From Sulfurospirillum arcachonense DSM 9755 (GTDB lineage: Bacteria > Campylobacterota > Campylobacteria > Campylobacterales > Sulfurospirillaceae): a stretch of DNA of 64,000 nt. The stretch is taken from contig NZ_JFBL01000011.1 of NCBI RefSeq assembly GCF_000597725.1, forward strand, positions 1 to 64,000. The letters are read 5' to 3'. How positions within the stretch are numbered: position 1 is the stretch's first letter; every line of letters begins with the position of its first letter. The translations under genes and the position numbers were made by a program. Positions 1,071-11,616 of the stretch are shown here, piece by piece. Under the pieces are notes generated by a model, which saw nothing but the letters and a program-made list of their open reading frames with translations, did not search any database and was not told the DNA's origin.

Positions 1071-4000
1071 TTAGTGCTTTTTAACACACACTTTATTTCT
1101 TCCACTTTCTTTTGCTTTATAGAGTAACTCATCAGCTTCTTGATATAAGAGCTCTTCATCATAGATAGATTGTGCTTTGGTTATAACTAATCCAAAAGAG
1201 GCAGTAACATATAAACTAGCACTATTCTTTTCATGAGCTATATGTAGATTTTCTACATTAGCACGAATTGTTTCTAAAAATTTTTCAGCTTTATCAGGTT
1301 CTAATCCTCTTAGAAGTATTCCAAATTCTTCACCACCCAATCTAAAAAAGTAGTCATCTGCTCTATGAAGTAAAGCTTGAATTGCTTTTGAAGTTTCTCT
1401 AAGCACATCATCTCCTGCTACATGGCCATAAGTATCATTGTAAAGTTTAAAATAATCTATATCCATTAAAGCAAAACATATATACTCATTTTCACGTTTT
1501 GCACTATTTATGAGTTCCGGTAACTTTTGATTAAAATATCTTCTGTTATAGGCTTGTGTTAACTCATCTGTTATAGATATTTCTTCAAGTTTTTTTCTGT
1601 AAGTGATGTCATTTCTTATAGAGGTATAGCCTATTTTGTTATTTTTATCATCATATATAGTAGATATTTTTGTATCTACCCAGTATTTTTCTCCATTTTT
1701 TCTTTTATTTTTTATTTCTCCTTGCCATGTTCCAGTTTTTTGTATAGTGTCCCACATATTTTTAAAAAAATCTTTAGTCATATCTTGGTGACGGACTATA
1801 GAGTGAGTTTTTTTAATTAATTCTTTTTTTGAATAACCAGAAATTTCACAAAAAGCTGTAGAAACTTTAGTTATTCTTCCTTTTAAATCAGTAGTAGAAG
1901 AGATAATATGTTGATCCATTAAATCAAGATTAGCTTGAAGTTGTTGTTCTATTTTTTTTCTATAAGATATTTCAATATTGAGTTTTCTATTAGTTCTTAA
2001 AATAACAAAGAGTATAAGAAAAAAGAGTGTAGCAATCCCACCAAGCCACTTAAATATTGTATTATATTGTATTGTATTATCATAATTTAGTGATATCCAT
2101 TTATCTGCTATTTTTTGATATTCATAATTAGGAATCAAATTGATAGATTTATTTAATATAGTTAAAAGATAAGGTGCATCATTTCTAACTCCTATAGATA
2201 AATTCCATATGTCATTAAGTTTTCTAGCTATTTTTAATTGGCCAACATAATTCTTTTGTATCTGATAAGCTATAGGAGCGAGAGTTCCTATAAAACCAAA
2301 TAGTTTGTTTTTGTTTACTAGTTTTAATCCTTCACTTTCATTTTTAACTTCAACAAATTGTAGGTTTTGGTATTTGTTTTTTAACATATTTAAATAATCA
2401 TGTCCTTGAGTAATGCCTATTTTTTTATTTTTTATTTGGTTGATATTATTGATAAATGGTGTTTCTATTTTGGTTGCAAGAACAAAAGGCAATTTTAAAT
2501 AAGGAATCGAGAAGTTTAAATACTGCTTTTTTGTATCAGTAGGCGCAATCATAGAGATAATGTCACATTTTCTTTTTTTGCTAAATTCTAATGATTCATC
2601 CCATGTTGTTGTTTTGACTAATTTAATAGGTCTATTTAAACTTTTTTCTATTAAAGATATATATTCAGCAGTAATTCCTATGTGTTTATTATTTTCGATT
2701 TTTTCATAAGGCATCCAATTAGGATTAATACACATGTTGATAATTTTTTTTTCGCTAATATATACTTTTTCATTATTACTGAGTTTTAGCATTGCAGATG
2801 TATCTTTTTCATTCATCCATCTATTTTTTATTTTTTGTATTTCATCATATGCTAATTGAGAATGAGATTTTTCCAATATAGATTTTAAAAGTGCTTTAGA
2901 TTTAGGGACACCTATGTATAAACTTGTAGTCGTAGGTATTTTTAATCCTTCTATTTGTCCAGACTGTAAAGTATTTAACCAATTTTTTTGTATATAATAA
3001 TTGGCTGTAGGAAGACTTCCTATGTAAGCATCAGCTTTATTTGTCAAAAGAGCATTTAGTCCTTCAAGTGAATTTTTTATTTGCAAAAATCTAATGGATG
3101 GAAAATTTTTGTGTAAATGTGAATCTAAAAAAGTACCTTTTGCTACAGCTAAGGTTTTATTAGTAAGTTGTTTCATATTGGTATAGATATTTGTTTGTTT
3201 AGAGACTAAACCAGTTGAAAAATTAATATAATCAAAATCAGTAAATAATATAGATTTTTTTCTATCTTCATTTATCCCAATATGAGGGATGACATCTATT
3301 TCTGCTTTTTTTAACATTTGTAAAAATTCTGCCCATGTTTTACCTGATACTATTTTGATTTTAAGACCAGCTATTTTAGCAAGCATATTTATGTAATCTA
3401 TACTATAGCCTTTTTGTTTATTGTTCTCAATATAACTAAAAGGAGGATAATCTCTCATACCAGCTACTTCTATCACTGGGTTGTTTTTTATATATTTTAT
3501 TTCTTCTTCACTAAACATTTGTCGTTTTTTGTTAAAGTTTTGAAATATGTATTCTGATACTGGAATATCATTTTTGATAAGTCCATACTCTTGGTATAAA
3601 TTTAATGTATATTTCAGTCTTCCTTCATCAAATGTTCCCAATGGAGTAGTTTTTGGCTGGATTATTTGTTCTATTGCATTAGCTTCATACCTTAAATGTT
3701 CAATAGATTTATTTTTTGCATATTTATTTTTTATTAATTGGATGATTTCTTCTTTATGGTTAAGGGCATATTCCCAACCTTTGAGTGTAGCTTCCTTAAA
3801 TTTTAATACTCTATCAGGATGGTTTCTTGCTTCTTTTTCATTTGTAATAAGCATATCGCCATAAAGATCTAAACCATAATTTGATGGATTAATAATATTT
3901 AAATCTATACCTTTTTCCTTAAAATAAAAAGGCTCATTTGTTAAGTAGCCCGCATACGTGTCAGTAATGCCTTTCATTAGAAGGGTATAGTCTGTTTTTT

Positions 4001-4460
4001 GTTTTATTCTAATTAGATTAGGTTTTACATTTAACTTTTTAAACATAGCCAATAAACCAAAGCCATCGGTATCTTTATTGTAAAAAATTGTTTTTTTATT
4101 ATTAAGTTTATAAGGAGAGTCAATACCACTACTTTTTAAGCTAAGTAAAACACTAGGAGAGTGTTGAAATATAGGACTTACAATAACTACAGGCTCTTTT
4201 TTTGCTCTATAAAGTAAAATTACAGAATCTGCTATGCCGTACTGTGCTTCATCATCTATTACTTGTTGAATGTTGTTATATTTTAAATCTCTTTGTTTGA
4301 TTTGCACATCCAAGCCAACTTCTTGGTAAAAACCTTTTTCTTTAGCAGCATAATATCCAGCAAACTGAAATTGATGTAACCATTTTAATTGAAGAGTAAT
4401 TTTTTCATAAGAATGTGCAAAAGTAAATAAAAAAAATATTAAAATGAGTATTTTTGACAT
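1071..4460 (-). CDS. Membrane diguanylate cyclase with three periplasmic substrate-binding-type sensor domains, PAS and GGDEF
   Basis: The 1129-residue protein has a signal or anchor segment (MSKILILIFFLFTFAHS). An NMT1/THI5-like binding domain follows (about 15-310, LQLKWLHQFQFAGYYAA), then two SBP_bac_3-like domains (about 325-560 and 575-810). After these come a membrane helix (about 825-845), a PAS domain (about 860-970, ISGYSKKEL) and a GGDEF domain (about 975-1129). The active-site motif is intact (FRLGGEEFG), so it should make c-di-GMP in response to a periplasmic ligand. I chose the Met at 4460, not the longer frame from 4490, because AAGGAG lies 6 nt upstream and a signal peptide begins there. 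It is divergent from the type I secretion operon, which suggests it controls adhesion. The ligand is unknown. Confidence 0.85.
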   Translation of the reverse strand: MSKILILIFFLFTFAHSYEKITLQLKWLHQFQFAGYYAAKEKGFYQEVGLDVQIKQRDLKYNNIQQVIDDEAQYGIADSVILLYRAKKEPVVIVSPIFQHSPSVLLSLKSSGIDSPYKLNNKKTIFYNKDTDGFGLLAMFKKLNVKPNLIRIKQKTDYTLLMKGITDTYAGYLTNEPFYFKEKGIDLNIINPSNYGLDLYGDMLITNEKEARNHPDRVLKFKEATLKGWEYALNHKEEIIQLIKNKYAKNKSIEHLRYEANAIEQIIQPKTTPLGTFDEGRLKYTLNLYQEYGLIKNDIPVSEYIFQNFNKKRQMFSEEEIKYIKNNPVIEVAGMRDYPPFSYIENNKQKGYSIDYINMLAKIAGLKIKIVSGKTWAEFLQMLKKAEIDVIPHIGINEDRKKSILFTDFDYINFSTGLVSKQTNIYTNMKQLTNKTLAVAKGTFLDSHLHKNFPSIRFLQIKNSLEGLNALLTNKADAYIGSLPTANYYIQKNWLNTLQSGQIEGLKIPTTTSLYIGVPKSKALLKSILEKSHSQLAYDEIQKIKNRWMNEKDTSAMLKLSNNEKVYISEKKIINMCINPNWMPYEKIENNKHIGITAEYISLIEKSLNRPIKLVKTTTWDESLEFSKKRKCDIISMIAPTDTKKQYLNFSIPYLKLPFVLATKIETPFINNINQIKNKKIGITQGHDYLNMLKNKYQNLQFVEVKNESEGLKLVNKNKLFGFIGTLAPIAYQIQKNYVGQLKIARKLNDIWNLSIGVRNDAPYLLTILNKSINLIPNYEYQKIADKWISLNYDNTIQYNTIFKWLGGIATLFFLILFVILRTNRKLNIEISYRKKIEQQLQANLDLMDQHIISSTTDLKGRITKVSTAFCEISGYSKKELIKKTHSIVRHQDMTKDFFKNMWDTIQKTGTWQGEIKNKRKNGEKYWVDTKISTIYDDKNNKIGYTSIRNDITYRKKLEEISITDELTQAYNRRYFNQKLPELINSAKRENEYICFALMDIDYFKLYNDTYGHVAGDDVLRETSKAIQALLHRADDYFFRLGGEEFGILLRGLEPDKAEKFLETIRANVENLHIAHEKNSASLYVTASFGLVITKAQSIYDEELLYQEADELLYKAKESGRNKVCVKKH

Positions 4461-4561
4461 CCTTTTACTCCTTAAATAAATATTATACATCTATTTATTT
4501 TTTTAATCAAATTATGTTAAAAAAAACATTTAATTAGTATTTTGTAAATATTAGGATAAAA

Positions 4562-4594: not shown

Positions 4595-6751
4595 ATGCCC
4601 TTCACTAAATTAAAAGAGATAAAAGATCCATTGTTAGAGTGTTTAGTGATTTTTACAAAACTTCACAATAAACCCTATAGTGCAGAAGCTTTAACCGAAG
4701 GACTTCCTGTCAGTGGAGGTTCTAATAGTATTGAATTGTTTTCAACAGAAGGCTCAAAAGCACTTTTCTCAAGAGCAGCAAAAAGAGCAGGTTTCACATC
4801 AACTTTAATCAAAAAAAGTTTAAAAGATATTTCACCCCTTGTTCTTCCTTGTATTCTTATTTTAAAGGGGAGAAAAGCGTGTATCTTAGAAGAATTTGAT
4901 GTAGTATCAAATACTGTAAAAATAATATACCCAGATATGCCAAGTAGTGAAAACTGGGTAGATATGGAGATGTTAGAAGAACAGTATTTAGGATATGTAT
5001 TTTATTTAAAAAAAGAGTTTGTCTCAGAAGATAGGACAAAAACTCATTTGATCGATAAAGATAATGTACATTGGTTTTGGGGTACTTTAAAACGTTCACG
5101 TGATATTTATAGAGATGTTATTATAGCTTCTTTGGTAATAAATATATTTGTTTTGGCAAGTCCACTTTTTACTATGAATGTTTATGATAGAGTTGTTCCA
5201 AATAATGCTACAGATACGCTTTGGGTATTAGCAATAGGTGTTATTGTTATATACATTATTGATCTTTTTTTAAAACTTACGAGAGCATACTTTTTAGAAA
5301 TAGCTGGAAAAAAGAGTGATATTATAATGTCTTCTATACTTTTTGAAAAAGTATTAGATTTACAAATGGCAAGTCGTCCTAAGTCGATAGGTTCTTTTGC
5401 AAATAACCTAAAAGAGTTTGACTCAATAAGGTCATTTTTTACTTCTACAACAATAGCTGCTTTAGTTGATTTACCTTTTACCATTATCTTTTTAAGTGTT
5501 ATATATTTTATTGCAGGGAGTATTGTTTTTGTACCTATTCTAATCTCTTGTATTATCATCACATATATGTTTTTTGTAAAAGAGCCTCTTCAAAAAAGTA
5601 TAGAGAGTACTTACGAAGCATCTGCAATTAAAAATGGAATTTTAATTGAGACATTAGGAGGCATAGAAACTGTAAAAACTATGAGTGGAAGTGGTTTAGC
5701 TCAATGGAACTGGGAAGAAGCTACAGGAGAAATTGCCAACAGAAGTGTAAAATCAAAAATTCTTACAAGTTCTATTAACACGGTAACAGCTTTCTTAGTA
5801 CAATTAAATACCGTTATAGTTATAGTTATTGGTGTTTATATGATCAAACAGATGGATTTGACTATGGGTGGTTTGATTGCTGCTGTTATACTTTCTTCTC
5901 GTGCAATTGCTCCAATGGGTCAAGTTGTGGGATTGGCCGCAAGTTACGAGCAGACAAAAACAGCGTATAAGACAGTAGATAATATTATGCAAATGCCAGT
6001 AGAGAGACCTGAAGGTAAAAAGTTTGTAAGAAGAGATAGTATGAAAGGTGAAATAGAGTTTAAAGATGTTGATTTTTCATATCCTGATGCTCAAAATGGA
6101 GCTTTAAATAAAGTGTCATTTAAAATAACAGCTGGTGAAAAAGTGGGGATTATTGGGAAAAATGGTTCAGGTAAAACAACTATAGAAAAGTTAATGTTAG
6201 GACTTTATGCACCGGATGAAGGTGCAATACTTGTTGATGGTATAGATATAAACCAAATTGATCCCGTTGATTTGAGAAAAAACATAGGATATGTTCCACA
6301 AGATGTAGTTTTATTTAATGGAACAGTTAAAGAAAATATAGTCTATAAATATCCTGCTATTGATGATGCTTCTATACTTAAAGCAGCGAAGATAAGTGGA
6401 ACAGATGAGTTTATAAATTCACATCCTTTAGGTTTTGATATGCCAGTATATGAAAGAGGAGAAGGGATATCTGGAGGACAAAGGCAAAGTATAGCCATTG
6501 CACGAGCTTTTTTACTTGACTCTCCAATAGTCATTTTAGATGAACCAACGAACTCTTTGGATAATACAACAGAGATGAAAATAAGAGGGCTTTTAAAAGA
6601 AAACATACAAGAAAAAACAGTTATTCTAGTTACACACAAAAGTTCATTACTTTCACTTGTAGATAGATTGATTGTGATGGATGGTGGAAAAGTAGTGATG
6701 GATGGTAAAAAGGATAAGATACTCATGCAACTTCAAAGAGGTGCAAAATGA
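4595..6751 (+). CDS. lapB: Type I secretion ABC transporter, permease/ATPase (LapB-like)
   Basis: The 718 residues follow the order of LapB/RtxB exporters. An N-terminal C39-like domain (about 1-130) is followed by a six-helix ABC transmembrane domain (about 155-440) and an ATPase domain (about 480-715). The ATPase has Walker A GKNGSGKTT near 525, signature SGGQRQS and Walker B VILDEPTNSLD. In the C39-like domain the usual catalytic Cys position reads DPLLEC, with Pro where DCG has Cys. It is therefore probably a non-cleaving, substrate-holding domain as in adhesin and RTX exporters. It overlaps the adaptor gene by ATGA. The likely substrate is an RTX or LapA-type adhesin; a short candidate is encoded at 8793. 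The symbol is by analogy. Confidence 0.88.
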   Translation: MPFTKLKEIKDPLLECLVIFTKLHNKPYSAEALTEGLPVSGGSNSIELFSTEGSKALFSRAAKRAGFTSTLIKKSLKDISPLVLPCILILKGRKACILEEFDVVSNTVKIIYPDMPSSENWVDMEMLEEQYLGYVFYLKKEFVSEDRTKTHLIDKDNVHWFWGTLKRSRDIYRDVIIASLVINIFVLASPLFTMNVYDRVVPNNATDTLWVLAIGVIVIYIIDLFLKLTRAYFLEIAGKKSDIIMSSILFEKVLDLQMASRPKSIGSFANNLKEFDSIRSFFTSTTIAALVDLPFTIIFLSVIYFIAGSIVFVPILISCIIITYMFFVKEPLQKSIESTYEASAIKNGILIETLGGIETVKTMSGSGLAQWNWEEATGEIANRSVKSKILTSSINTVTAFLVQLNTVIVIVIGVYMIKQMDLTMGGLIAAVILSSRAIAPMGQVVGLAASYEQTKTAYKTVDNIMQMPVERPEGKKFVRRDSMKGEIEFKDVDFSYPDAQNGALNKVSFKITAGEKVGIIGKNGSGKTTIEKLMLGLYAPDEGAILVDGIDINQIDPVDLRKNIGYVPQDVVLFNGTVKENIVYKYPAIDDASILKAAKISGTDEFINSHPLGFDMPVYERGEGISGGQRQSIAIARAFLLDSPIVILDEPTNSLDNTTEMKIRGLLKENIQEKTVILVTHKSSLLSLVDRLIVMDGGKVVMDGKKDKILMQLQRGAK

Positions 6752-8139
6752 GTATAGAAAATGAAAATAAAGCTATAAATACAGCACAAAATTTATCAAG
6801 AGTATTAAAAAAAGATTTACATAAAAGTAAGTTTGACGTTCATGATTTAAAATATATGTCAAGTTTAAGTGAAGCAGTTTTGCAAAAATCTCCAAGAAGG
6901 TCTAAGTATATTTTATGGCTCATTGCTCTTTCTATAGGTTGGCTAATATTTTGGGCAAGTCAAGCAGAGCTTGATGAATTGACAAGAGGTGAAGGGAAAA
7001 TTATACCATCACATCAACTTCAAGTGGTCCAAAATTTAGAAGGTGGTATAGTTTCAGATATACTAATCAAAGAAGGTGATATTGTTAAACAAGGGCAAGT
7101 TATCCTAAAAATAAATAATACAAATTTTGCTAGTTCATATGAAGAGGGGAAATTAAAATTAGATGAATTAAAAGCAAAATTTTTAAGACTTGATGCTGAA
7201 GCTAATGAATTAAAATCTTTTAACTATGATAAGACAAAAACATCAAAACAGATAGAATATGAAAAAAGTTTATATGATAGCAATAAAGAACAGCTAACTA
7301 AATCTTTAGATGTTATAAAAGAACAGATAACACAGAAAAATCAGGAGCTTTCTGAGTTATATGCAAAAATAAAACAAGAGCAAAATACTTTGAAACTGAT
7401 GGAAGAAGAAGTAGCCATCACAGAACCACTTGTTAAAAGGGGTTTAGTTTCAGAAGTTGAATTTTTACAATTAAGAAGACAGTTAAATGGAGTAAAAGGG
7501 GATTTAGAGGCTTCGACTTTGTCTATTCCTAGATTAAAATCACAAATTATAGAATTTAATAATAAAATATCAGAAATAAAACTTGAATATAAAAATAAAG
7601 CAAAAGAAGAGTTAAATAAAGTCGTTGCAGAGATATCGAGAATAACAGAAACAAATACTGCCTTGAGCGATCGTGTAAAAAGAACATTAGTACGCTCTCC
7701 TGTTGATGGAACAGTCCAGCAGCTTTTTATAAATACCATAGGAGGAGTTATTCAACCTGGAATGGATTTAGTTGAGATTGTTCCTGCACAAGATACTCTT
7801 TTAGTAGAGGCAAAAATAAAACCGTCAGATATAGCATTTTTAAGACCTCATTTAGATGCTATGGTAAAGTTTAGTGCATATGATTTTGCCATTCATGGTG
7901 GTTTAAATGGTAAAGTGACCAATATTAGTGCTGATACTATTAAAGATGAAAAAGATGAGAGTTATTACCAAGTTAGGATTAAAACAGATAAAAATCATTT
8001 AGGAAGTGAAGAAAAGCCTCTGCCAATTATTGTAGGGATGACTGTTAGTGTTGATATTATAACAGGGAAAAAAACTGTTTTGGATTATTTACTTAAGCCT
8101 ATTTTGAAAGCTAAACAAAGTGCATTAAGAGAGAGATAA
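6748..8139 (+). CDS. lapC: Type I secretion HlyD/LapC-family membrane-fusion protein
   Basis: The 463-residue adaptor has a cytoplasmic N-terminus and one membrane helix (about 53-72, ILWLIALSIGWLIFWAS). A biotinyl-lipoyl-like half motif follows (about 90-125, VVQNLEGGIVSDILIKEGD), then a long coiled coil (about 130-300). The second half motif and beta-barrel close the protein (LVRSPVDGTVQQL, then LVEAKIKPSDIAFL). It bridges the inner-membrane ABC exporter and an outer-membrane TolC-like channel. The ATGA overlap with the upstream gene implies translational coupling. No TolC/LapE gene is in the window, so that partner must be elsewhere. Confidence 0.9.
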   Translation: MSIENENKAINTAQNLSRVLKKDLHKSKFDVHDLKYMSSLSEAVLQKSPRRSKYILWLIALSIGWLIFWASQAELDELTRGEGKIIPSHQLQVVQNLEGGIVSDILIKEGDIVKQGQVILKINNTNFASSYEEGKLKLDELKAKFLRLDAEANELKSFNYDKTKTSKQIEYEKSLYDSNKEQLTKSLDVIKEQITQKNQELSELYAKIKQEQNTLKLMEEEVAITEPLVKRGLVSEVEFLQLRRQLNGVKGDLEASTLSIPRLKSQIIEFNNKISEIKLEYKNKAKEELNKVVAEISRITETNTALSDRVKRTLVRSPVDGTVQQLFINTIGGVIQPGMDLVEIVPAQDTLLVEAKIKPSDIAFLRPHLDAMVKFSAYDFAIHGGLNGKVTNISADTIKDEKDESYYQVRIKTDKNHLGSEEKPLPIIVGMTVSVDIITGKKTVLDYLLKPILKAKQSALRER

Positions 8140-8142
8140 AGT

Positions 8143-8733
8143 TTGAAAATTATTAGTTTTTCTAACAATAAAGAGTATATAAAAAGATACCCTAATTTTT
8201 TACATATAAAGAGTGAAGATGAGTTAGAAATAGAAGATGATTTTATATTTGTTGTAGAGATAGCAAATATAAAATATAATGAAGAAGAGTTTTATGCATA
8301 TGTAAATGACATATCTACATGTAAAGGAATATTTTGTCTTACATGTAAACCAAATTTTACAGAAGGTTCTCACCTTCTTAATCTTGGAATAAAAGGTTAT
8401 GGTAATTTACATATGTCACAAGTACATATGCAAGATGCTTTGAATACTATAGAAAATGGTAATGTATGGTTATATCCAGAATTTGTCCAACTTATGATAA
8501 AAAGTTTTAGTAAAAACATACATGAAGTAAATCATAAAGAACTTGATTTACTATCATTGAGAGAACAAGAAATAGCAAGTTTGGTAAAAGAAGGATTAAG
8601 TAATAAAGAAATAGCACAACAGGCTAATATAACAGAAAGAACGGTAAAGGCACATATGAGTTCTATTTTTACTAAGTTACATGTAAAAGATAGGGTGGCT
8701 TTAGTTATAAAACTTAGTACTAATGTACAATAG
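8143..8733 (+). CDS. LuxR-type transcriptional regulator with degenerate receiver-like N-terminus
   Basis: The 196-residue protein starts with TTG three bases after the adaptor stop, with an AGAGAGA purine stretch as ribosome site. The C-terminal 65 residues are a clear LuxR/GerE helix-turn-helix (LSLREQEIASLVKEGLSNKE and the recognition part ITERTVKAHMSSIF). The N-terminal 125 residues resemble a response-regulator fold in length and layout. However, the acidic pocket and phospho-acceptor Asp are not recognisable (FIFVVEIANIK). It lies in the secretion operon, so control of that operon or of the adhesin-like gene that follows is a fair inference. Confidence 0.8.
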   Translation: MKIISFSNNKEYIKRYPNFLHIKSEDELEIEDDFIFVVEIANIKYNEEEFYAYVNDISTCKGIFCLTCKPNFTEGSHLLNLGIKGYGNLHMSQVHMQDALNTIENGNVWLYPEFVQLMIKSFSKNIHEVNHKELDLLSLREQEIASLVKEGLSNKEIAQQANITERTVKAHMSSIFTKLHVKDRVALVIKLSTNVQ

Positions 8734-8792
8734 AAAAAAAGTTTAAAATTTGATAATATTTATAAAATATAAATTTATGGATGGGATTTAAA

Positions 8793-9407
8793 ATGAGTTT
8801 AGAAGTAGCTTTTGTAAAAAGTATAACTGGTAATGTTAGTGTGGTTGATGGCATTACAGATATTCAAAGAGATATAAAAGCTGGCGATGAATTATTTTTA
8901 AATGATACTATTACTCCTGTTGATGCAACCTCAAGTATAGTAATAGCCATAAATGGAAGAGAAGATATAACACTTAATTCAAATGAAAGTTTATTTTTAG
9001 ATAAAAGTGTTATAGATATTCAAAGTTTTTCTGATGAAGCAGTTGTTTCTAGTGGAAGTGTAGAAGAATTTGTAGCAACACTTAATGTTGATTTTGAAAC
9101 AAATATACTGTTTGAAAGTGATGACTTAGACTTTTCAAATGAACATCTTTTTGGACAAGAAGTTGAACATAATCCTACAAGTAGTTTAAATATAAATGAT
9201 ATTATTGAAATGCCAAATGCAGAAACAAAAATCTTTCATGATGATACGCAAGAGGTATCATTAAATCAAGTTGATTGGATAAAACAAGATGATAAAGTTT
9301 TTGAAGATGGACACTCTTTTGATGTTTATACAAAAGATATAGGTGGACATGAAGTGACAACACTATGGATAGAAGATGATATATCGGTCTTTTATAATCA
9401 TAGCTGA
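8793..9407 (+). CDS. Short LapA-like retention-module protein, probable type I secretion substrate without adhesin repeats
   Basis: I chose the Met at 8793 (204 residues), not the in-frame ATG at 8781, because GGGA lies 6 nt upstream and retention modules begin this way. Residues 1-100 match the layout of the LapA retention module: VAFVKSITGNVSVVDG, GDELFLNDTI, a strand-rich part ending DITLNSN, then SVEEFVATL like the SVEEL segment of LapA. No di-alanine (TAAG-type) LapG cleavage site is visible after it. The last 45 residues (VYTKDIGGHEVTTLWIEDD) look like the C-terminal end of type I secreted adhesins. The usual thousands of residues of repeats are missing. It could be a minimal surface plug, a decoy, or an adhesin reduced by deletion. 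Confidence 0.65.
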   Translation: MSLEVAFVKSITGNVSVVDGITDIQRDIKAGDELFLNDTITPVDATSSIVIAINGREDITLNSNESLFLDKSVIDIQSFSDEAVVSSGSVEEFVATLNVDFETNILFESDDLDFSNEHLFGQEVEHNPTSSLNINDIIEMPNAETKIFHDDTQEVSLNQVDWIKQDDKVFEDGHSFDVYTKDIGGHEVTTLWIEDDISVFYNHS

Positions 9408-9423
9408 GGTCACTTCATATAAG

Positions 9424-10821
9424 TTATGAAAAAAACTGTTTTATTGAAGGCATCTTAGATAATATAAAAATATCTAAAGCTAAAACTATTATTAAGCTAA
9501 TCCCTACTAGTGGGAAAAATAAAGATAAAAACAACATTATAGCCATAGCATTTTTCCAATGAGGAAGTTTTGTTGGCTCACTTGGTGCACACAATCTAAA
9601 ACCTGCATTATTTGGTCTTCTTTTCCACCATACAATAACTCCAGAGATAGTAAGAACTATGATTGATAAACAAATTAGAGTATTGATAATAAGGTTCCAA
9701 ATTGTCACTAATCCCATATGAATAGGGATAGAAACAGCCATTGTTTTACCAGCAATAGAGTAGTCATCAAAAGTGATCTTTGCCAATACTTTTCCTGTAT
9801 AACGGTCTACATGTACTGTTTTATCAGCAAAAGGATTTTTAGCATCGCCATTCATAGTATCTTGATTTATAGTCCATACACCTTTTTCACCTTTAGGAAA
9901 AGAAATTCTATATCTTCCTTTAAAACCTATTCTTTGTGCTAGATTATTAATACTAGTAAGATTGATATTTTCACCTTTAAGTGTCCCTAAAGTACCTTTA
10001 CTTGAACCAGAAGCAGGCAGAGGTGTTTTTTCAATTGCCCAAGGAATACCAGATGATGGACTATGATTTAAAGATGCATGGGTTACATCTGATAGAGGTA
10101 TTTTATCCCATTTTTGTGCAGGAAAAGTACTCCATGTTTGGAAAAGTTTTCCTCCCCAAACTCCTGTCCATGCCATACCTGAGAGTAAAAATAGAAGAAA
10201 AAATATAGAAACATACACGCCTAAAGTCATATGAAATTCTTTCCAAAAGCCTTGAGTACTAGAAAATAATTTTGGTATTAATGACAAAGTTATTTTTTTA
10301 TTTCTAGGCCACCACAAATACATACCAGTAATAATCAAAATAATTGCAAAACCTGCTGCTATTTCTAAAATTCTATCACCAAGTGTTCCTAGTAACAAAT
10401 CACTATGAATACTATCTGTAAGATCATAGAGTCCTTGTCTTCGTAACCAATGATTGATTATTTCTCCTGTATATGGATTAATTGCTACTAGTGTTTGCTT
10501 TTTGTGAGTATCTACTAAACGAAATACATTGACTTTATTAGCATCTGAAGCTTTTATCCACTCTACTAATTTAGATTGAGGATTTGAAGATAAAGCAATA
10601 TCTGATTGTTTATTTATACTAAGAGTAACAGTATCTTTAGGTATAGAAACTTTTATATTCTCACCATCTCGTCCATCAAAATAACCAATATACATCATCA
10701 TCATTCCTGTTACCGCTAAAATAAGCATAAAAGGTGTTACAAATAATCCAGCATAAAAATGCCAGCGCCAAACGGCTTTATAAAATTGGTTCTTTTCTTT
10801 AACATTTAGATCTTTTTTCAT
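9424..10821 (-). CDS. PepSY-associated transmembrane protein (PiuB-like)
   Basis: The 465-residue protein has the PepSY-TM architecture. An N-terminal helix (about 20-48, YAGLFVTPFMLILAVTGMMMM) is preceded by a W-R-W-H-F motif. Two periplasmic PepSY-like regions and further helices near 145-170, 195-220, 365-390 and 425-460 follow. Scattered membrane His residues (WHFY, HMTLG, HMGLV) suit haem binding. Family members are linked to iron or siderophore uptake and periplasmic electron transfer. No TonB receptor is adjacent to confirm an iron role. It converges with the retention-module gene (16 nt apart) and diverges from the LapG-like gene. Confidence 0.8.
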   Translation of the reverse strand: MKKDLNVKEKNQFYKAVWRWHFYAGLFVTPFMLILAVTGMMMMYIGYFDGRDGENIKVSIPKDTVTLSINKQSDIALSSNPQSKLVEWIKASDANKVNVFRLVDTHKKQTLVAINPYTGEIINHWLRRQGLYDLTDSIHSDLLLGTLGDRILEIAAGFAIILIITGMYLWWPRNKKITLSLIPKLFSSTQGFWKEFHMTLGVYVSIFFLLFLLSGMAWTGVWGGKLFQTWSTFPAQKWDKIPLSDVTHASLNHSPSSGIPWAIEKTPLPASGSSKGTLGTLKGENINLTSINNLAQRIGFKGRYRISFPKGEKGVWTINQDTMNGDAKNPFADKTVHVDRYTGKVLAKITFDDYSIAGKTMAVSIPIHMGLVTIWNLIINTLICLSIIVLTISGVIVWWKRRPNNAGFRLCAPSEPTKLPHWKNAMAIMLFLSLFFPLVGISLIIVLALDIFILSKMPSIKQFFS

Positions 10822-10934: not shown

Positions 10935-10965
10935 AGAAGAGCTAAGAATATATATGAGGTTAAAG

Positions 10966-11616
10966 ATGAATTTACAAATTATAATTAAAATACTTTTCTT
11001 TTTAGTTCTTTGTTTAACAAATATAAATTCAGCGGAGTTCTATCTTAATCCTTATTTTGAAAAAAAGATACAAAAAGATACAAAAAGTTTTCATATTTTA
11101 AAAAACTATGTTGCTTTTATGAATACTCTTGTCAATTTAGATAAAAACTCACAAATACAAAAAATCAATACGTATCTAAATGCTATTATTCCTAGATATG
11201 ATGCTTATAATTATAAAAATGAAGAATACTGGGCAACACCTTTTGAGTTTTTATCACGAGGTGGTGGAGACTGTGAAGATTATGTTATTGCTAAGAGATA
11301 TTCTTTAAAAAAATTAGGTTTTTCAACAAAAGATATGTATCTTAGTGTAGTCAAAGAAAAATATACAGGAGGTGATCATATGGTTTTGAGTTTACATGTA
11401 AACAAAAACAGCCCACCCTTAGTGTTAGATAATCTTAGTACAAAGGTACTTTCTTTCGATAAAAGAGTAGATTTAAAGTTAAATTTTATGTTTAATGATT
11501 TTGAGTTTTTTACTTTAAAAGATTACAAAACTTTTATTAAAATCAATAAAATAAATCTTCCTGCATATGAAAAAATGAAAACTAGAGATAATCAAGAATT
11601 AATTCTAAAAAGATAA
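10966..11616 (+). CDS. lapG: LapG-like periplasmic transglutaminase-like cysteine protease
   Basis: I chose the Met at 10966 because GAGGT lies 5 nt upstream and a signal peptide follows (about 1-23, ending NINSA), giving 216 residues. The bacterial transglutaminase-like cysteine proteinase triad is visible: Cys in GGGDCEDYVIAK, His in GGDHMVLSL, and Asp in LVLDNLS. LapG proteins release LapA-type adhesins by cutting the retention module when c-di-GMP is low. The nearby LapB/LapC genes and retention-module protein support this role. The c-di-GMP receptor LapD, which normally sequesters LapG, is not in the window. The nearest candidate site-bearing protein lacks a visible di-alanine, so the real target may be encoded elsewhere. 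Confidence 0.82.
   Translation: MNLQIIIKILFFLVLCLTNINSAEFYLNPYFEKKIQKDTKSFHILKNYVAFMNTLVNLDKNSQIQKINTYLNAIIPRYDAYNYKNEEYWATPFEFLSRGGGDCEDYVIAKRYSLKKLGFSTKDMYLSVVKEKYTGGDHMVLSLHVNKNSPPLVLDNLSTKVLSFDKRVDLKLNFMFNDFEFFTLKDYKTFIKINKINLPAYEKMKTRDNQELILKR

Follow-up and report, generated by a model that had tools for sequence, protein, structure and literature searches.

A small gene beside a type I secretion exporter

The window, a 64,000-nucleotide stretch of the Sulfurospirillum arcachonense DSM 9755 genome, contains on its forward strand a type I secretion block made up of an LssB-type permease/ATPase (positions 4595–6751; TIGR03375, 934 bits, cut-off 693), an HlyD-type adaptor (6748–8139; TIGR01843, 412 bits, cut-off 209) and a LuxR-type regulator that accompanies the exporter (8143–8733; GerE domain, E 7e-18) and occupies the same position in relatives. 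These three genes lie, in that order, 5' of an open reading frame on the same strand that runs from an ATG at 8793 to a stop at 9407 and encodes 204 residues: a retention module (NCBIfam retention_LapA, NF033682, E 3.3e-4), a linker and a type I secretion-type C-terminus. Relatives encode proteins homologous to it along the entire length, and we refer to these short proteins as minis. A likely ribosome-binding site, GGATGGG, can be read at 8779–8785 (forward strand); a second in-frame ATG at 8781, upstream of the assigned start, is the less likely start because the starts of relatives match 8793. The open reading frame is a real gene: 204 open codons would occur by chance at the composition of the window with a probability of ~1.6e-8, and its GC content at the three codon positions (0.48/0.29/0.10) follows the same pattern as that of the adjoining genes. 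A promoter scan of the mini gave a result no better than shuffled sequence.

Directly after the mini, a PepSY protein is encoded on the opposite strand (9424–10821), and 1.5 kb downstream lies a gene for a paralogue of the periplasmic protease LapG (LapG2; 10954–11616, forward strand; Peptidase_C93, E 1e-18), in which conserved columns show the C107-H142-D159 triad to be intact. LapG2 extends the neighbourhood described in an earlier note on this DNA, from which it was absent. That note had placed the mini next to its exporter genes, which is correct for LssB and HlyD; TolC, LapD and LapG1 are located elsewhere in the genome. The exporter block is also adjoined by a 1139-residue fusion (1071–4490) that, judged by eye, joins substrate-binding-like segments to a diguanylate cyclase C-terminus.

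The N-terminal region is modelled as a retention module

Residues 1–80 of the mini (8793–9032, forward strand) carry a retention-module fold according to structure prediction. In our AlphaFold2 model, block-mean pLDDT is 87–97 over residues 1–70 and the confident fold reaches to about residue 76. A Foldseek comparison returned 5ix9, solved as a "cell surface anchoring domain" and listed in the PDB as an antifreeze protein, as the top PDB match (TM-score 0.82 by target, rmsd 1.6 Å, 73 columns) and as the sole structural match with E < 0.001. At the sequence level, the NF033682 profile matches residues 5–76, yet its 20.8 bits fall below the cut-off of 50 bits, which clear adhesins of relatives exceed. 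A search of PDB sequences with the mini sequence alone gave no match and a Pfam search matched no domain, while a profile of the family matched 5ix9 at E 9e-16. The resemblance to the LapA retention module proposed in the earlier note is thus retained, over nearer 80 residues than the ~100 it gave. A model of a mini from the related genus g15 reached a pLDDT of 40, too low for use.

An acidic linker in place of the LapG site

Residues 87–96 (9051–9080, forward strand) could be what is left of the LapG "targeting helix", as judged by sequence comparison (SVEEFVATL in the mini, SVEELQAAL in adhesins) and by a low-confidence helix in the model. In adhesins this helix is followed by a TAAG motif, which is absent at that place in the mini. 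Instead, residues 97–129 (9081–9179, forward strand) form an acidic, probably disordered linker (pLDDT mostly < 50) that replaces the LapG site and the repeats; the charge over residues 97–145 is -12, and pLDDT in that stretch is likewise mostly < 50. The whole protein is free of di-alanine and, at 204 residues, contains no extender repeats and no ligand-binding or RTX region, bearing out the earlier statements that both the LapG site and the repeat region are missing.

Counted after removal of three signal-peptide proteins (L003, L098, L099), 42 of 45 adhesin N-termini with a retention module contain a [TAP]AAG motif, two of the three exceptions being cut by contig ends, compared with 0 of 14 minis. 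The corresponding Fisher p of 5e-11 is too small because the sequences are related, and the argument from independent origins given below is safer. Every mini-bearing genome checked has a LapG. Short retention-module proteins that keep TAAG do exist (421–464 residues; loci L176 and L179), so shortness alone does not explain loss of the site in minis.

A secretion-type C-terminus

Residues 130–204 (9180–9404, forward strand), ending in EVTTLWIEDDISVFYNHS, show a modest sequence resemblance to adhesin secretion ends. A profile of adhesin C-termini scores 14.9 bits against the mini (best of 200 shuffles, 9.0), and alignment to the C-terminus of an adhesin from the same genome gives 28% identity over 76 residues (BLASTP E 6e-4), with 9 of 1000 shuffles as good. 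The TIGR03661 model (T1SS_VCA0849 C-terminal class) has no match genome-wide, true adhesins also being unmatched. The earlier note had likened the last 45 residues to the end of type I secreted adhesins; the secretion-type end stands, and its length is ~75 residues.

Adhesin genes lie elsewhere in the genome

Two further retention-module adhesins are encoded outside the window. One, of 2134 residues, lies on contig C6 with TolC, LssB, HlyD and LuxR genes. The other has its N-terminus, with a TAAG site, on contig C12 and its C-terminus on contig C21; the two contigs (L042:1-772, L117:1-2850) overlap by 97 identical bases within a repeat, and the two ends, joined through that repeat, are likely to be one gene. 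This split adhesin adjoins LapD, LapG1 and TolC, an arrangement of adhesin end and LapD-LapG1-TolC also found in Sulfurospirillum sp. UBA12182. Because the adhesin ends of the genome lie elsewhere, the mini of the window is neither its sole adhesin copy nor a broken one. A search ahead of the C12 adhesin for a remnant of a mini found none.

Distribution of minis among relatives

Our survey, which covered a single phylum, found minis in four Sulfurospirillaceae genomes (that of the window included), in one further genome, G283, and in 27 of 48 genomes of g15. Matches of 144–146 residues with a signal peptide were left out of the counts as another kind of protein. These small proteins, at L003:1330-1764, L098:6073-6513 and L099:5850-6290, occur in several relatives and have a retention-module-like, perhaps FecR-like, N-terminal part.

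When relatives were checked at the window locus, UBA12182 was found to have the order LssB-HlyD-LuxR-mini-adhesin, with the adhesin starting 3 bases past the mini stop and grouping in the tree with the C12 adhesin (support 100/99). The mini of UBA12182 thus sits between LuxR and a separate adhesin, rather than forming a fragment of an interrupted one. The LssB-HlyD-LuxR block precedes the mini in both genomes, at differing genome places, while G038, a genome of the same genus as that of the window, has the exporter block beside an adhesin and no mini. In G036, G038 and G039, LapG2 occurs without an exporter block; the first two carry ahead of it a GGDEF-EAL gene, devoid of a LapD_MoxY_N domain, that is absent at the window locus. 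The placement of exporter block and mini across relatives therefore indicates that the mini of the window travels with the exporter block. Minis were not found in the remaining genomes of the genus, indicating that the mini is dispensable.

Elsewhere, the minis of G033 and G021 follow an adhesin. Those of g15 have 170–190 residues; the genes before them encode a histidine kinase, a regulator and, in a subset of genomes, an adhesin, and their neighbourhoods showed no exporter gene. We also considered an association between minis and LapG2 as a rule and rejected it, since G021 and UBA12182 have one LapG and several genomes without a mini have two. A search of plasmids for the retention module gave no match. 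In G014, an adhesin retention module is broken by one TGA stop (G014:C1:792966-793220, L029).

Minis arose more than once and are under selection in g15

In a tree of retention modules, which has few columns and some long branches, a single clade of minis is rejected (AU test, p 0.005). Minis therefore arose more than once, and the LapG site is missing in the minis of each origin. The minis of G033 and G021 are sisters of adhesins of their own families, on long branches, and quite plausibly originated as adhesin copies with an internal deletion. The position of the window mini becomes unstable once UBA12182 is omitted; we treat only the pair from the window and UBA12182 as orthologous, because gene order and full-length similarity back it. 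An alignment that included adhesin C-terminal pieces (A3) was misaligned and was left out.

The g15 minis are under purifying selection: dN/dS is 0.05–0.29, and both ends are conserved while the linker varies in length and sequence. Synonymous sites between the window and UBA12182 minis are near saturation, and our dN/dS figures thus cover g15.

A possible role in the outer-membrane channel

In the reading that we tentatively favour, at a little less than even probability, the mini permanently occupies the outer-membrane channel without being adhesive, as a small LapA-type type I secretion substrate that tunes adhesin display. LapG is known to cut LapA between alanines 108 and 109 (PMC3032545), and the retention module contacts the protease, with the [T/A/P]AAG motif holding the scissile bond (PMC13090378). 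Set beside these studies, the presence of both ends and the absence of the site would lead one to expect export, stalling and resistance to release by analogy. Guided by its C-terminus, the mini would enter the LssB-HlyD-TolC exporter. Its retention module would then fold in the periplasm and stall the protein, so that, as in retained LapA, the C-terminus would be outside the cell and the acidic linker would lie within the channel. With [T/A/P]AAG gone, LapG would be unable to release the mini when c-di-GMP falls, and the channel would stay filled, such that the amount of mini relative to adhesin would set the number of adhesin-carrying channels. The mini may also keep emptied channels shut. 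Of these steps, which we infer, resistance to LapG is not certain, because in P. fluorescens the LapA substitution AA108-109RR, which raised surface LapA, blocked cutting in vitro and partly in vivo (PMC3032545).

This proposal is consistent with the observed anatomy, in which the ends needed for export and retention are kept and the dispensable parts are gone, and with the genomic linkage, minis adjoining the exporter block (window, UBA12182) or coming after an adhesin (other minis). It is further favoured by the repeated origin of minis without the LapG site in genomes that have LapG, by purifying selection on the g15 minis, and by the engineered Mini-LapA, which is built from the two termini and is secreted yet non-adhesive. 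Against it stand the weak retention match of the window mini, well under the profile cut-off, its modest C-terminal match, the lack of an exporter gene next to the g15 minis, the dispensability of the mini within the genus and the much greater size of the engineered Mini-LapA. Among the three readings offered in the earlier note, those of a channel plug and of a regulator of adhesin retention fit best. A broader version, which we hold more loosely, is that Campylobacterales repeatedly evolved LapG-proof mini retention proteins as dedicated display regulators that compete for channels, giving retention that is partly independent of c-di-GMP.

The main rival, which we consider unlikely, is that a mini delivered to the periplasm by the type I system acts as a decoy, binding LapG uncut through its retention module and any targeting helix, so that LapG is titrated and the adhesin is retained longer. 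In its favour, the LapG-type protease DvhG is contacted by retention domains and made more efficient by them (PMC13090378), the helix ahead of the absent site looks kept in the window and g15 minis, and the minis of both the window and G033 have a LapG paralogue close by. However, sequence comparison reveals no recognisable helix in the G033 and G021 minis, and possession of a second LapG does not track with carrying a mini.

Decay, the third reading of the earlier note, is less probable again. Here, duplication of an adhesin followed by internal deletion would have left the two termini fused in a non-functional gene undergoing loss, as the sister relationships and long branches of the G033 and G021 minis and the patchy occurrence of the window mini across its genus might suggest. 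It is disfavoured by the gene order in UBA12182, by adhesin ends elsewhere in the mini's own genome, by full-length open frames at 36–38% identity and by conservation in over half of the g15 genomes under purifying selection; moreover, neutral decay alone does not predict that the LapG site should be lost every time.

Slightly less probable still is a small surface-anchored protein that displays its C-terminal segment, for example as an adhesin cap or assembly partner, with channel occupancy incidental. Mini C-termini do resemble those of adjoining adhesins (TIYIEIDNDLNKLS in the mini and TIYIDVDNDINKQLV in the adhesin in g15) and, in the window's genome, IEDDIS in the mini corresponds to IEEDIT in the adhesin, but minis have no extra folded domain, the C-terminus resembling a secretion end only and the linker being disordered. 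Least probable is a released effector whose C-terminal part is freed by the nearby, divergent LapG2, whose triad is intact, or by another protease cutting the linker at a different sequence, since no conserved motif was seen in the mini linkers.

Returning to the proposed channel occupant, current accounts of LapA-type adhesin control rest on a single switch, cleavage by LapG governed by c-di-GMP. If the proposal is true, a natural, conserved substrate without the site would constitute a second layer of control, exerted through the supply of channels or through LapG itself. Minis make it possible to test whether channel number limits adhesin display, how a retained substrate affects a TolC-type pore, and whether LapG is titrated and, unlike giant adhesins, they are small enough for purification, structure determination and reconstitution.

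Comparison with known systems

The mini shares with LapA of Pseudomonas fluorescens and other retention-module adhesins a retention module, a type I C-terminus, LssB/HlyD and the presence of LapD/LapG in the genome; it differs in having 204 residues rather than thousands, and in being without repeats, a ligand-binding or RTX segment and [T/A/P]AAG. The retention-module fold is likewise common to the mini and 5ix9, which comes from the ice-binding adhesin of Marinomonas primoryensis; 5ix9 is the N-terminal domain of a giant adhesin, whereas the mini is a stand-alone small protein. In another family, the proteins at L176:6777-8039 (421 residues) and L179:5545-6936 (464 residues) are, like the mini, short, located beside LssB-HlyD and without large repeats; they differ from it in keeping TAAG and in having long acidic, low-complexity Asp-Thr/Asp tails, with poly-(Asp-Thr) runs, and another C-terminus. 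We found no published description of a natural mini without the LapG site in the literature, which we covered in part. The closest counterpart is the engineered Mini-LapA (Newell et al. 2011, PMC3032545), which also consists of both termini with the repeats removed and is secreted and non-adhesive. Mini-LapA is man-made, ~145 kDa in size and retains a LapG site that is cut, whereas the mini of the window is natural, far smaller and siteless.
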